A DNA stretch of 64,000 nt. It comes from Rhizobium acidisoli. Lineage in GTDB: Bacteria; Pseudomonadota; Alphaproteobacteria; Rhizobiales; Rhizobiaceae. Of this stretch, positions 16,147 to 46,073 are shown in pieces. Location of the stretch: NCBI RefSeq assembly GCF_002531755.2, contig NZ_CP034998.1:2480001-2544000 (forward strand), written 5' to 3'. Within the stretch, counting starts at the first letter, position 1, and each line of letters begins with the position of its first letter. A model generated the notes under the pieces. The model was not told the origin of the DNA. It did no database searches and was given only the letters and a program-made list of their open reading frames with translations. Made by a program: the position numbers and the translations under genes.

Positions 16147-16376
16147 GTCTCTCTCCCATGGTTGTCATGGCCTGCCCTCGCCTCAGGCGGGATCGGCGGG
16201 TCATGCGGTGTAGATTGGGTGTCCTCATCGGAAACATGTAGGCAAACGTGTGCGTTCAGCAAGGGCAGTCGGGGCGCCGTTCTCGACATTGCCGGACACC
16301 GGCGGCGCCGCTCCTTGCGCATTGCAGAAAGCATTTCGCCCTATTGCCAGCTTGCCGCCTTGCCCCTATTGTCCCC

Positions 16377-16515
16377 GCCGTTCTCAGGGCGGGGTGAAAG
16401 TCCCTACCGGCGGTATGCAGTTTCGATTGCGAGCCCGCGAGCGCCTTCTTAAGGAAGGGTCAGCAGATCAGGTGAGATGCCTGAGCCGACGGTCATAGTC
16501 CGGATGAAAGAGAAC
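16377..16515 (+). promoter_or_regulatory. FMN riboswitch (RFN element)
   Basis: The conserved RFN blocks appear in order: TTCTCAGGGCGGGGTGAAAG, TCCCTACCGGCGGT, AGCCCGCGAGCG, GTCAGCAGATCAGGTGAGAT, GCCTGAGCCGACGGT and ATAGTCCGGATGAAAGAGAA. It lies 83 bp upstream of the lumazine synthase gene on the same strand, so it should repress ribH2 when FMN is abundant. No strong U-tract terminator is visible between the aptamer and the gene; a short GC hairpin near 16528 could act on translation or termination. Confidence 0.97.
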
Positions 16516-16597
16516 GTGCGTTCCTGCCGCCCTTGCGGCTGTCGGGGACGTTCGTGATCGCCTTGGGTGATGTGTCTGTTCGCCAAAGGAGATTACC

Positions 16598-30675: not shown

Positions 30676-31428
30676 TTATTCCATGCGCCGTGCCTCCAGC
30701 GGCGCCTCCTGCCTGAATCCTTCAAAATAGAGGCCGCCATGCAAGGCAAGCTCGCGATCGGCCAAAGCCAACAATCGCGCGCCATCGCCCCCTGCCGCCA
30801 GCCTGAACGCCGCGTCGAACTCCGCCGCCAGTCGGGCATCGAGCCTGCTGATGAGACGCGGCGCCCACTTGCCGCGGCCGGCCCATTCGCCGCGTCCGAG
30901 CAGAATGAGATCGGCGAGCTTCTGGTAGAGTTGCGCGGCGATCGCCGCGATCTCTTCGGGCGGGCGCGTCCCGCGCAGATCGTCGGCAAGATCGGTGACC
31001 TGATAGCGCAGCATGTCGGAACGTGCGCCGGCCAGCGGTTTCGGCCCGGCCGCCAGCATTGCCGCCGCCTTTGCCTGCACGATGCGCGCGCGCTCCATAT
31101 CCGGTCCGACCACGCGACCCGTGGTGACCATGTGGGCCATAACAGGGCAGCCGCTCTCGGTATCGGCATGGATATAATACGCCAGCGTCTCTTCATCGTG
31201 GACGAAGGCCTCGACCGGAAAGCCCTCATGGGTGAAGGATTCCCGCCAGGCTCGTTCCAGCGACGAAAACACGACGACGAGATCGATATCCGAAAACGCT
31301 GTGCCCTCGCCGCGCAGCAGCGAGCCGGTGGCGTAAGCGAAAGCGGCCCCGGCATAGCGGTTGGCGACGCAGCGATGGGCGGCGGCGACCGCCCGCTCCG
31401 CAAGAATGTGTTTCTGGATGTCGTCCAC
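30676..31428 (-). CDS. Nucleotidyltransferase domain protein
   Basis: A 250-residue protein with the polymerase-beta-like nucleotidyltransferase signature near residues 35-52: ATGSLLRGEGTAFSDIDLVVV (GSxxxG...SDID, two catalytic Asp). A third carboxylate may be in FPVEAFVHD. The C-terminal two-thirds is helical. The family includes aminoglycoside adenylyltransferases and MNT antitoxins, but no HEPN gene is adjacent and the target is unknown. The gene lies 37 bp downstream of an apparent attenuator (leader ORF, competing hairpins and terminator at 31465-31592), suggesting conditional read-through expression. Confidence 0.85.
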   Translation of the reverse strand: MDDIQKHILAERAVAAAHRCVANRYAGAAFAYATGSLLRGEGTAFSDIDLVVVFSSLERAWRESFTHEGFPVEAFVHDEETLAYYIHADTESGCPVMAHMVTTGRVVGPDMERARIVQAKAAAMLAAGPKPLAGARSDMLRYQVTDLADDLRGTRPPEEIAAIAAQLYQKLADLILLGRGEWAGRGKWAPRLISRLDARLAAEFDAAFRLAAGGDGARLLALADRELALHGGLYFEGFRQEAPLEARRME

Positions 31429-31464: not shown

Positions 31465-31492
31465 GAAAAAACCCGCTCGTTTCCGGCGGGTT
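31465..31492 (-). terminator. Rho-independent terminator in the nucleotidyltransferase leader
   Basis: On the minus strand AACCCGC-CGGAAACGA-GCGGGTT is followed by T5-6, a classical terminator. It lies upstream of the nucleotidyltransferase start, not after any gene, so it should stop most transcripts before that gene. The left part, with upstream ACCCA, can alternatively pair with an earlier segment at 31535-31545 (GGGCGGTGGGT), which would open the terminator. Confidence 0.85.
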
Positions 31493-31517
31493 GGGTCTCA
31501 GCAGCAATGAACGGAAT

Positions 31518-31592
31518 TCAGTTCACGCGTCTGCACCCACCGCCCGGGGCGGTGGTCGTAGACATCGTCGAAACTGCAAAAATCCCGGTCAT
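31518..31592 (-). CDS. Putative leader peptide (24 aa) of an attenuator
   Basis: A 24-codon frame beginning MTGIFAVSTM, continuing STTTAPGGG and ending CRRVN before TGA. Its ATG is 7 bp after the -10 box of a good promoter, so the message would be leaderless. The Thr-Thr-Thr-Ala-Pro codons form the left arm of a hairpin (CCACCGCC/GGCGGTGG, 31537-31555), and the terminator follows 26 bp after the stop. This is the order promoter, peptide, hairpin 1-2, terminator seen in amino-acid attenuators and in antibiotic-inducible leaders. The GIF...VST run is reminiscent of ErmCL. Real translation is inferred. Confidence 0.55.
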   Translation of the reverse strand: MTGIFAVSTMSTTTAPGGGCRRVN

Positions 31593-31599
31593 GGCGGCG

Positions 31600-31628
31600 A
31601 GGATATCGCCCGGCGGCGGGAGCGTCAA
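31600..31628 (-). promoter_or_regulatory. Sigma70-type promoter for the leader
   Basis: TTGACG (31623-31628) and TATCCT (31600-31605) on the minus strand are separated by exactly 17 bp, close to the alphaproteobacterial housekeeping consensus. The first transcribed base is predicted at about 31592, the A of the leader ATG. Confidence 0.65.
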
Positions 31629-34517: not shown

Positions 34518-35807
<1,290 letters not shown>

Positions 35808-44463: not shown

Positions 44464-45279
44464 TCATGCCCTCTTCTTCGGCGCAGGCCAGTTGTGGGTT
44501 TCCTCAGTCGCGTCCCGGCACCAGCGGAAGAAGGCATCGTAGAGAAGCATTCCGGCTTCGAGCTGCTCCAGATCGTCGGAAAACATCCTGGAGAGACCGA
44601 GCGATGCTGCAAGCAGCCCAGGCGCCTCGGGCGCGAGATCGAGCCTTGCGGTATCCGCCGCCCTGATAATCTGCGCCAGACGAAGAAGCGGTTCGGACGC
44701 CAGGCCGAACTCCTCGACCATCACATCGAAGGTGCAGAGTTCGCCGCGATGGCTCCAGAACACGTCTTCGATATCGAAGGGGACCGCCCCGAAGCGTTCG
44801 CCGACGGCTATAACCTCGGGCGCCGGCACGAACAGGAAGACGGCGTTCGGATCGACGAAGCGTCGGATCAGCCAGGGACAGGCGATGCGGTCGATCTTCG
44901 GCCGCGCCCGTGTCACCCAGACGGTGCGCCCCTCGGCGTCGCGGCGCGGAAGCTTTTCCGCTGGCACTGCCGCTCCGCCGGCAATCCAGGCTTCGAAGCC
45001 GCCTTCGAGGCTCTCGGCGTCGATCCCGGCATGGCGCAGATAGGCGGCCACACCATGGCTGAGCTTGCTGCCCCTTTGACAGACCACCACCACAGTGCCG
45101 GCATTCATGCTGGCCGCCCAGGACGCAACCTCGGCATGATCGCGCCGGATCGAGCCCGGAACCAGGCGCGGATCGAGCGCGAAGTCCTCCTCGGTGCGAA
45201 CGTCGACGATGCAAGGCGCGGCGGGGGTTCCAATAAGGCGGCTGAGTTTGTCGGGAGAAATTTCGAGAAATGACGGCAT
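44464..45279 (-). CDS. Rhodanese-ChrB fusion protein
   Basis: A 271-residue cytoplasmic protein. Residues about 5-110 form a rhodanese domain (IVDVRTEEDFALDPRLVPGS, catalytic loop VVVCQRGSKLS); residues about 125-265 match the ChrB C-terminal domain (WVTRARPKIDRIACPWLIRR, FDIEDVFWSHRGELCTFD). ChrB is a chromate-responsive regulator or reductase-linked factor; the rhodanese fusion is a known alphaproteobacterial form. It precedes chrA in one operon. ATG at 45279. Confidence 0.92.
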   Translation of the reverse strand: MPSFLEISPDKLSRLIGTPAAPCIVDVRTEEDFALDPRLVPGSIRRDHAEVASWAASMNAGTVVVVCQRGSKLSHGVAAYLRHAGIDAESLEGGFEAWIAGGAAVPAEKLPRRDAEGRTVWVTRARPKIDRIACPWLIRRFVDPNAVFLFVPAPEVIAVGERFGAVPFDIEDVFWSHRGELCTFDVMVEEFGLASEPLLRLAQIIRAADTARLDLAPEAPGLLAASLGLSRMFSDDLEQLEAGMLLYDAFFRWCRDATEETHNWPAPKKRA

Positions 45280-45483
45280 GACGCGTCCTCCGTTGATCGG
45301 TGTTACTGGACGCGATTCTTCAGCATGACGCCTCGTGGGATGATCGCAACCCCATGGAAAAACCATGCGCAAACAGACCCCGCCGTGTCAAGCGGGCGCT
45401 TGCATAGAACAGCGGAACACAGCCGATCAGGGTCAGCTGCCGCCCGGAATCCCTTGATATCAACTGCTTCGCGGTCCCGGTAC

Positions 45484-45897: not shown

Positions 45898-46073
45898 CTG
45901 TCGCGCGCTCTTGAATACCGGCAGAGAAAGCTTATTTTAGAAATATTGAATTTGTCTCTGACGGCTGACCACGGATGTACTGGCAGCCGTTATCGAGACA
46001 GATCTAGGAAGGGTCGGTGCGAGTTTCGCCCGGCCTTTTTTCTTGACCTCCCCACAATTCTCGCAGCGGGATT

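Follow-up and report, generated by a model that had tools for sequence, protein, structure and literature searches.

A predicted leaderless, threonine-codon attenuator ahead of a nucleotidyltransferase gene in Rhizobium

What might be the role of a frame of only 24 codons, rich in threonine, that seems to begin with the message itself and ends shortly before a nucleotidyltransferase gene in Rhizobium acidisoli? The window (the whole stretch of 64,000 nucleotides that was analysed) carries on its minus strand, between 31628 and 31466 and in this order, a promoter, an ATG, the 24-codon frame, a hairpin and an intrinsic terminator. Behind them lies the gene for a nucleotidyltransferase (NTase) of 250 amino acids (30676..31428, minus strand, with a GTG start at 31428), which has the NTP_transf_2 domain (PF01909). 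Judging from sequence comparisons and predicted pairings, we think it quite probable that the element is a leaderless, ribosome-mediated transcription attenuator, likely sensing uncharged tRNA-Thr and switching on the NTase gene.

The sigma70-like promoter (31600..31628, minus strand, read from the sequence) consists of a -35 element TTGACG (31628-31623), a spacer of 17 bases and a -10 element TATCCT (31605-31600), and the ATG at 31592 lies seven bases past the -10 element, i.e. at or next to the predicted start of the transcript; promoter, spacing and a 24-codon frame beginning at that start had all been proposed in the original prediction, and can be confirmed at the sequence level. A promoter in one genome alone is weak evidence (a scan of the window found one site against 0.3 expected), and the strength of this one comes from its conservation: the promoter is kept in all 50 of the strong covariance-model matches described below. 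The frame (MTGIFAVSTMSTTTAPGGGCRRVN; 31518..31592, minus strand, its stop ending at 31518) has five Thr codons (2, 9, 12, 13 and 14) and not three, as had been counted at first; three of the five, codons 12-14, are consecutive. The predicted control codons, Ser11-Thr12-Thr13-Thr14 (TCT ACG ACC ACC; 31551..31562, minus strand), were assigned from conservation and from the peak in ribosome-masked folding.

Thr13 and Thr14 are overlapped by segment 1 (CCACCGCC; 31548..31555, minus strand), the left arm of a predicted hairpin 1:2 (CCACCGCC-CCG-GGCGGTGG; 31555-31537, minus strand). The right arm, segment 2 (GGCGGTGGGT; 31535..31544, minus strand), may have as its partner either segment 1 or, through CGGTGGGT (31542-31535), segment 3 (ACCCGCCG; 31484..31491, minus strand), which is common to the antiterminator and to the intrinsic terminator 3:4 with its T tract (31466..31492, minus strand); the stretch ACCCAACCCGCC can be read on the minus strand at 31496-31485. 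When no ribosome is present, a long outer hairpin (31507..31592, minus strand) is also predicted, the base of which pairs AUGA with UCAU. The 131-base leader folds with -57.6 kcal/mol, as against -40.4 +/- 3.5 for shuffled sequences (z = -5.0; none of 200 shuffles as good). Our terminator scan of the window, with a loop limit of 8, did not list the terminator at 31492-31466, the loop of which is 9 when its two inner pairs go uncounted. No Rfam 15 family was found at gathering score at the leader locus or in nine related loci, which rules out the Thr_leader family (RF00506). Elsewhere in the window, Rfam matched an FMN riboswitch (16376-16519, plus strand), chrB-a RNA (45277-45358, minus strand) and the ar35 sRNA (45930-46044, plus strand); a highly repetitive frame (GSGKSDNG repeats) occupies 34518-35807 on the plus strand, where there are long open frames in several other frames too.

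These parts correspond to those of an amino-acid attenuator: a short frame in which codons for a single amino acid follow one another, an intrinsic terminator (31492-31466) ahead of the first gene (31428), and mutually exclusive pairings 1:2, 2:3 and 3:4, the last as predictions only, with two-sided changes at none of 41 pairs in an alignment of ten sequences and a marginal standing against shuffles. The original prediction had envisaged just such a set of three alternative pairings, which our predictions bear out, and had looked to covariation in the hairpins for confirmation, which did not come. In the proposed mechanism, transcription would start at or next to the leader ATG. With plentiful charged tRNA-Thr, a ribosome would run through the Thr codons to the stop and cover segment 2, so that segments 3 and 4 pair as the terminator; in the absence of a ribosome the pairing 1:2 would arise, and again the terminator 3:4. 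When charged tRNA-Thr is short, the ribosome would halt at Ser11-Thr13 and cover segment 1, leaving segments 2 and 3 to pair and RNA polymerase to read through. Uncharged tRNA-Thr could arise from starvation, from low zinc or from inhibitors of threonyl-tRNA synthetase (ThrRS).

How widely is this element kept? When 61 genomes were searched with the DNA sequence, 11 were matched, and in ten of these the element was present (in G028 the match covered the upstream stretch only). A covariance model, R1, comprising ten leader copies, all of them NTase leaders, matched 64 of 148 genomes of the genus, 50 strongly (at least 121 bits) and 14 weakly; two of the 15 weak hits (L059 and L061) were false. 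The strong copies belong to the window's bacterium and to 49 of its 147 relatives, and these same 50 of the 148 genomes hold both the leader and a close NTase (at least 70% identity to that of the window). In three of the genomes (G022, G086 and G090) the NTase is apparently split into two overlapping frames, with the leader intact. In another 20 genomes of the genus the NTase matched is less closely related, or a fragment, and none of the 18 of these loci that were read (G165 being left out) was matched by R1 or by a second model, R2. In G094, also one of the 20, a divergent leader, MSKMHLTSLTAMTARVRWLVLS (L056:1673-1803), stands ahead of an NTase fragment and is perhaps decayed; its predicted antiterminator probability is 0.99 with no ribosome present.

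All 50 strong copies retain the promoter (TTGACG, a spacer of 17 bases in 49 and 18 in one, and TANNNT), and in all of them the ATG lies 5-8 bases past the -10 element and a gap of 31-39 bases separates the end of the terminator from the NTase gene. The frame varies from 21 to 24 codons, always stopping at codon 22-25. Codons 1-14 are free of stops and frameshifts throughout, their sole length change being a 3-base deletion in five sequences, and frame-shifting indels occur only 3' of the Thr run. Apart from the innermost, the terminator stem pairs are identical in all ten aligned sequences, and strong sequence conservation extends beyond the frame. Thus the frame and the hairpins, the retention of which had been put forward as a check on the initial idea, are both kept among the Rhizobium relatives.

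Within the frame, parsimony on the NTase gene tree (in one arbitrary resolution) gave 98 changes over codons 2-14, of which 33 fall in codons 2-4, 38 in codons 5-9, 18 in codon 10 and nine in codons 11-14, so that Ser-Thr-Thr-Thr has undergone nine changes as against 89 in codons 2-10. Thr is found at all of codons 12-14 in 45 of the 50 leaders, and the other five retain two of the three. The Thr codons in the hairpin arm are confounded with its pairing to GGTGG. No synonymous excess was found over codons 2-14 (33 of 98 changes, 30.9 expected; p = 0.35), and none that was clear over codons 5-14 (27 of 65, 21.2 expected; p = 0.06). Codons 5-9 (F-A-V-S-T), a stretch chosen post hoc, are enriched in synonymous changes (22 of 38, 9.3 expected; none of 20,000 relocations as extreme). 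At codons 5-8 (31580-31569 in the window) the amino acids F-A-V-S are kept across the 50 loci in spite of many synonymous changes, a conservation that is not accounted for by the counting of Thr codons; F-A is found also ahead of several of the Thr runs of the synthetase leaders described below.

The design is not confined to NTase genes. Twelve of the weak R1 hits (E 5e-6 to 7e-3) make up a second class, which R1 found unaided, if weakly: it has the same start, MNNFAFQAMTMGMTTTLCGGGVGL or something near it, the GACCACC/GGTGG hairpin and a related terminator. R2 found this class in 14 of the 148 genomes (at least 146 bits), in 13 of which a full-length Peptidase_S51 gene (PepE; the Pfam assignment was checked on one protein) starts 91-101 bases past the terminator. 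In the other (L260, G032) the leader is retained, and the best match covers only 38 residues, at the C-terminal end of the peptidase. As one of the leaders in R2 (L056) comes from the NTase side, the matches of this model to the NTase class are not wholly independent. The 14 genomes are all distinct from the 70 in which an NTase match was found, and in no genome of the 148 were the two classes of leader (50 and 14) seen together, which may be explained by clade structure. At L052 (after position 1674) and other PepE loci, a conserved AAAGGA ... GTGGCACAAGATCT-like stretch follows the terminator, ahead of the S51 peptidase gene, and, to judge from its sequence, looks like a ribosome site and the start of another short frame.

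The NTase was found in nine of the 297 genomes of the order that were searched, six of them outside the genus. Four of these six homologues, which come from families f6 and f11 and share 56-57% identity, are preceded by leaders (e.g. MTKRTAVSTSTTTALRWLVTS) that also begin a short distance past a promoter-like TTGACA. R2 also matched, in another genus of the Rhizobiaceae, a leader (MRQMFASVTTTTTIALRWPVV, L143) in front of a gene for a 405-residue ThrRS (P0001; TIGR00418), the sequence of which begins only with the catalytic core and aligns to E. coli ThrRS from residue 242. This spare synthetase gene, here called thrS2, is present in two of 41 genomes of that genus, with the leader before both (L143 and L258); when 26 low-scoring R2 hits from the Rhizobiaceae were read, a Thr frame was seen in L143 only, the others looking like plain terminators or nothing. 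With P0001 as query, at least 80 loci were found in named genomes. Among the 27 of these that were read, six proved to be canonical genes, matched inside their own frame, and 21 to be short thrS2 genes, from Roseivivax halodurans, Pelagibius litoralis, 18 records of Paraburkholderia, Burkholderia or Caballeronia, and Pyxidicoccus fallax. Ahead of each of the 21 there is a frame with a Thr run (e.g. MDFHSIPFAAVTTTTTTFTGGSSGGCAR), together with a GC-rich hairpin that resembles a terminator, so that all 23 short thrS2 genes read, with L143 and L258 included, have such a leader, with runs of 3-7 Thr. A second ThrRS gene was looked for in Rhizobium itself, but each of the 148 genomes gave a single match (E <= 1e-100), with frames of canonical length (661 codons or more, except for one of 498).

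From its sequence, then, the NTase leader appears to be one of a wider group, the other targets of which include spare ThrRS and S51 peptidase genes. Threonine as the common cognate amino acid ties the design of these leaders to Thr-tRNA. Since similar leaders precede spare ThrRS genes in distant bacteria, a lack of charged tRNA-Thr is the likely signal. Thr codons persist in every class of leader (those of the Rhizobium NTase, the other-family NTase, PepE and thrS2), and Thr-codon attenuation is the best common explanation.

What would a stalled ribosome be expected to do to such leaders? We masked about 30 bases around the ribosome and folded either the full RNA or a partial one in which segment 4 is not yet made; the stall scan took in 45 of the 50 NTase leaders (those of 22 and 24 codons), 12 PepE leaders and 13 thrS2 leaders. 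In the full RNA of the 40 NTase leaders of 22 codons, the probability of the antiterminator was 0.61, 0.42, 0.48 and 0.26 with codons 10, 11, 12 and 13, respectively, in the A site; elsewhere it was at most 0.10 (codons 2-9) or 0.01 (from codon 14), falling to 0.00 at the stop, and it was 8e-5 with no ribosome. In partial RNA, NTase leaders with the ribosome at the Thr codon that opens their longest run gave 0.86, as against 0.25 when free and 0.31 at the stop, the first-Thr value being above both others in all 50. For the five leaders of 24 codons, the window's class, the values at codons 10-13 were 0.15-0.06 in full and 0.70-0.72 in partial RNA, and for the window's own leader (L001), with the ribosome at Thr12, they were 0.01 (with 0.98 for the terminator) and 0.68. 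At full-RNA equilibrium the terminator wins in many leaders, the window's among them, and at the Thr codons it does so in every thrS2 leader folded; because of this, the attenuation model must assume co-transcriptional timing. That a stall at the control codons relieves termination is only predicted, by this folding model.

In partial RNA, 20 thrS2 leaders gave 0.86 at that first Thr, against 0.42 free and 0.37 at the stop (above the free value in 19 and above the stop value in 18), and 12 PepE leaders 0.99, against 0.88 and 0.15 (above free in seven, above stop in 12), the PepE leaders thus forming 2:3 even without a ribosome. The Roseivivax leader, again in partial RNA, gave 0.93-0.96 with the ribosome on Thr8-12, as against 0.00 when free and 0.01 with it on the stop codon, that of Pelagibius 0.87 already without a ribosome, and 13 Paraburkholderia-type leaders of 28 codons, with a Thr run from codon 12, 0.80-0.86 at codons 11-16 against 0.36 free. 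It had been recognized at the outset that a 2:3 pairing far weaker than 3:4 would speak against attenuation; this is not what was found in NTase leaders, with a mean of -16.8 kcal/mol for 2:3 (33 distinct leaders) and -14.4 for 3:4 (two leaders computed). For thrS2 the mean for 2:3 was -16.7 kcal/mol, and in L150, the one leader computed, 3:4 was stronger (-22.4). Against dinucleotide shuffles 2:3 is marginal, the fraction being <= 0.05 in 15 of 33 NTase, two of four PepE and four of 15 thrS2 distinct leaders.

The original prediction also offered a quite different signal, in suggesting that the GIF...VST of the peptide recalls ErmCL, which has IFVI-S where the leader has IFAV-S. On that reading the element would be a drug-sensing attenuator, in which an antibiotic-bound ribosome stalls past FAV, opening the leader and inducing the NTase. 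The preservation of codons 5-9 at the amino-acid level points in this direction, as does the predicted fold of the NTase (discussed below), and F-A-hydrophobic stretches lie ahead of some thrS2 Thr runs too (FAVIT in Pelagibius, FAAVT in Paraburkholderia). The folding can be read both ways: a stall at codon 8 raised the antiterminator in partial RNA to 0.83, against 0.23 free, but in full RNA it gave 0.10, against the 0.26-0.61 found at codons 10-13. While FAVS is kept in the Rhizobium NTase class, IFAVS as such is a feature of that class and is absent from the leaders of other-family NTase, PepE and thrS2 genes, in which only the looser F-A stretches are sometimes seen and in which Thr codons persist. 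For this reason we regard ErmCL-like stalling as a minor and rather improbable rival: of the two signals first proposed, amino-acid starvation stands in the form of Thr-tRNA charging, the most likely signal, and a macrolide is not likely to be the main one.

Two further explanations would dispense with the leader peptide as a sensor, or make it secondary. The main product might be a trans-acting sRNA of about 125 bases with its own terminator, the NTase being read through at a low level, for which the high stability of the full hairpin, in whose stem the 5' end lies (z = -5.0, as above), and the strong conservation outside the frame could be adduced, together with the precedent of rnTrpL, a leaderless attenuator of Sinorhizobium that is described as an sRNA as well (PMC10117765). 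However, the element and the close NTase are found in exactly the same 50 of 148 genomes, the end of the element lying 31-39 bases before the gene in all of them, related leaders precede other genes, and an attenuator can in any case also yield an sRNA, so that the two ideas do not exclude each other; as the main function, we consider this improbable, slightly more so than drug sensing. It is highly improbable, in our opinion, that the leader binds a protein or metabolite and that the frame is incidental. The high conservation of both arms and the lack of significance of the overall codon test (p = 0.35) would agree with this, but not the fact that all 50 leaders have an ATG where transcription is predicted to begin, nor the stop-free codons 1-14 with their single, 3-base change of length, nor the Thr-run frames of the same design ahead of all 23 thrS2 genes read.

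If attenuation by Thr codons is thus the preferred reading, what is the NTase for? The class of the gene had been described from the start as one that includes antibiotic-modifying enzymes, and the predicted structure (pLDDT 94, confident; 37 of 120 listed homologues used) agrees, the nearest solved folds being ANT(4')/kanamycin nucleotidyltransferase (KNT) and LinB, at about 16% identity or less. By the predicted model, the protein has the NTase core motif and the two-domain fold of ANT(4')/KNT. It is therefore predicted to share an antibiotic-modifying fold, which says nothing of its substrate. A sequence search of the PDB found no relative (one chain, at E 0.47, is a different enzyme). Lower-ranked structural matches included the MntA antitoxin and Hailong HalB; for an anti-phage or MntA-type role there were weak profile hits only (18.9 bits for NF047752, the cut-off of which is 60, and E 0.002-0.02 in PADLOC), probably reflecting the shared NTase core. 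The NTase was sought on plasmids also, and the 13 records matched, six of them from Rhizobium, were all below 60% identity. We know of no role of any NTase in threonine metabolism.

It is conceivable, though we are doubtful, that the leaders belong to a defence regulon against natural ThrRS inhibitors, in which a mobile leaderless Thr attenuator induces, according to lineage, a spare ThrRS, an S51 peptidase or an inhibitor-inactivating NTase. Resistance enzymes would then be induced by damage to the target and not by the drug. The absence from thrS2 of the Ser that confers obafluorin resistance weighs against the simplest drug-resistance version of this idea. If Thr-codon attenuation itself is correct, one type of leaderless Thr-tRNA sensor would be common to unrelated genes in Alpha- and Betaproteobacteria and Myxococcota, and would in Rhizobium be linked with an enzyme that has the fold of antibiotic nucleotidyltransferases. 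This would provide an orphan NTase with a concrete inducing condition, the question becoming which ThrRS-directed compound or Thr-related stress is involved, and would add a leader family that matches nothing in Rfam 15. No description of this leader was found in the literature searched, which covered openly available papers, PMC2965389, PMC10117765 and PMC2881028 among them.

Among known systems, the leader seems close in its general plan to the ribosome-mediated amino-acid attenuators of the trpL, thrL and hisL type, having several codons for the same amino acid in a row at segment 1, a stop past segment 2 and a terminator that shares segment 3 with an antiterminator, but the gene behind it is for an NTase and not for threonine biosynthesis. 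A spare synthetase under leader control is known in trpRS1 of Streptomyces coelicolor, which is induced by indolmycin; as with the thrS2 members of the present group, the synthetase is an additional one and its leader has many codons for the cognate amino acid, the differences being that here the amino acid is threonine, that the hosts are Proteobacteria and Myxococcota, and that similar leaders stand also before NTase and peptidase genes. Second ThrRS enzymes have been described elsewhere. T2 of Anabaena has impaired editing, is used when the first enzyme fails at low zinc and is under Zur control (PMC4787780), whereas P0001, the one thrS2 product annotated, starts at the catalytic core and lies behind a Thr leader. 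ObaO is an obafluorin-resistant second ThrRS, which gives protection under inhibition of the first enzyme and has Ser in place of Gly463 (PMC11252418); all 23 thrS2 products read have EGAFYG there, and obafluorin resistance of this type is thus rejected for them. Lastly, rnTrpL/peTrpL of Sinorhizobium meliloti is a leaderless transcript, starting with the AUG that opens a short leader frame (PMC10117765), a start that we predict here also from the position of the ATG, 5-8 bases past the -10 element; there the amino acid is tryptophan and the gene behind the leader is trpE, whereas here Thr codons stand ahead of an NTase gene.
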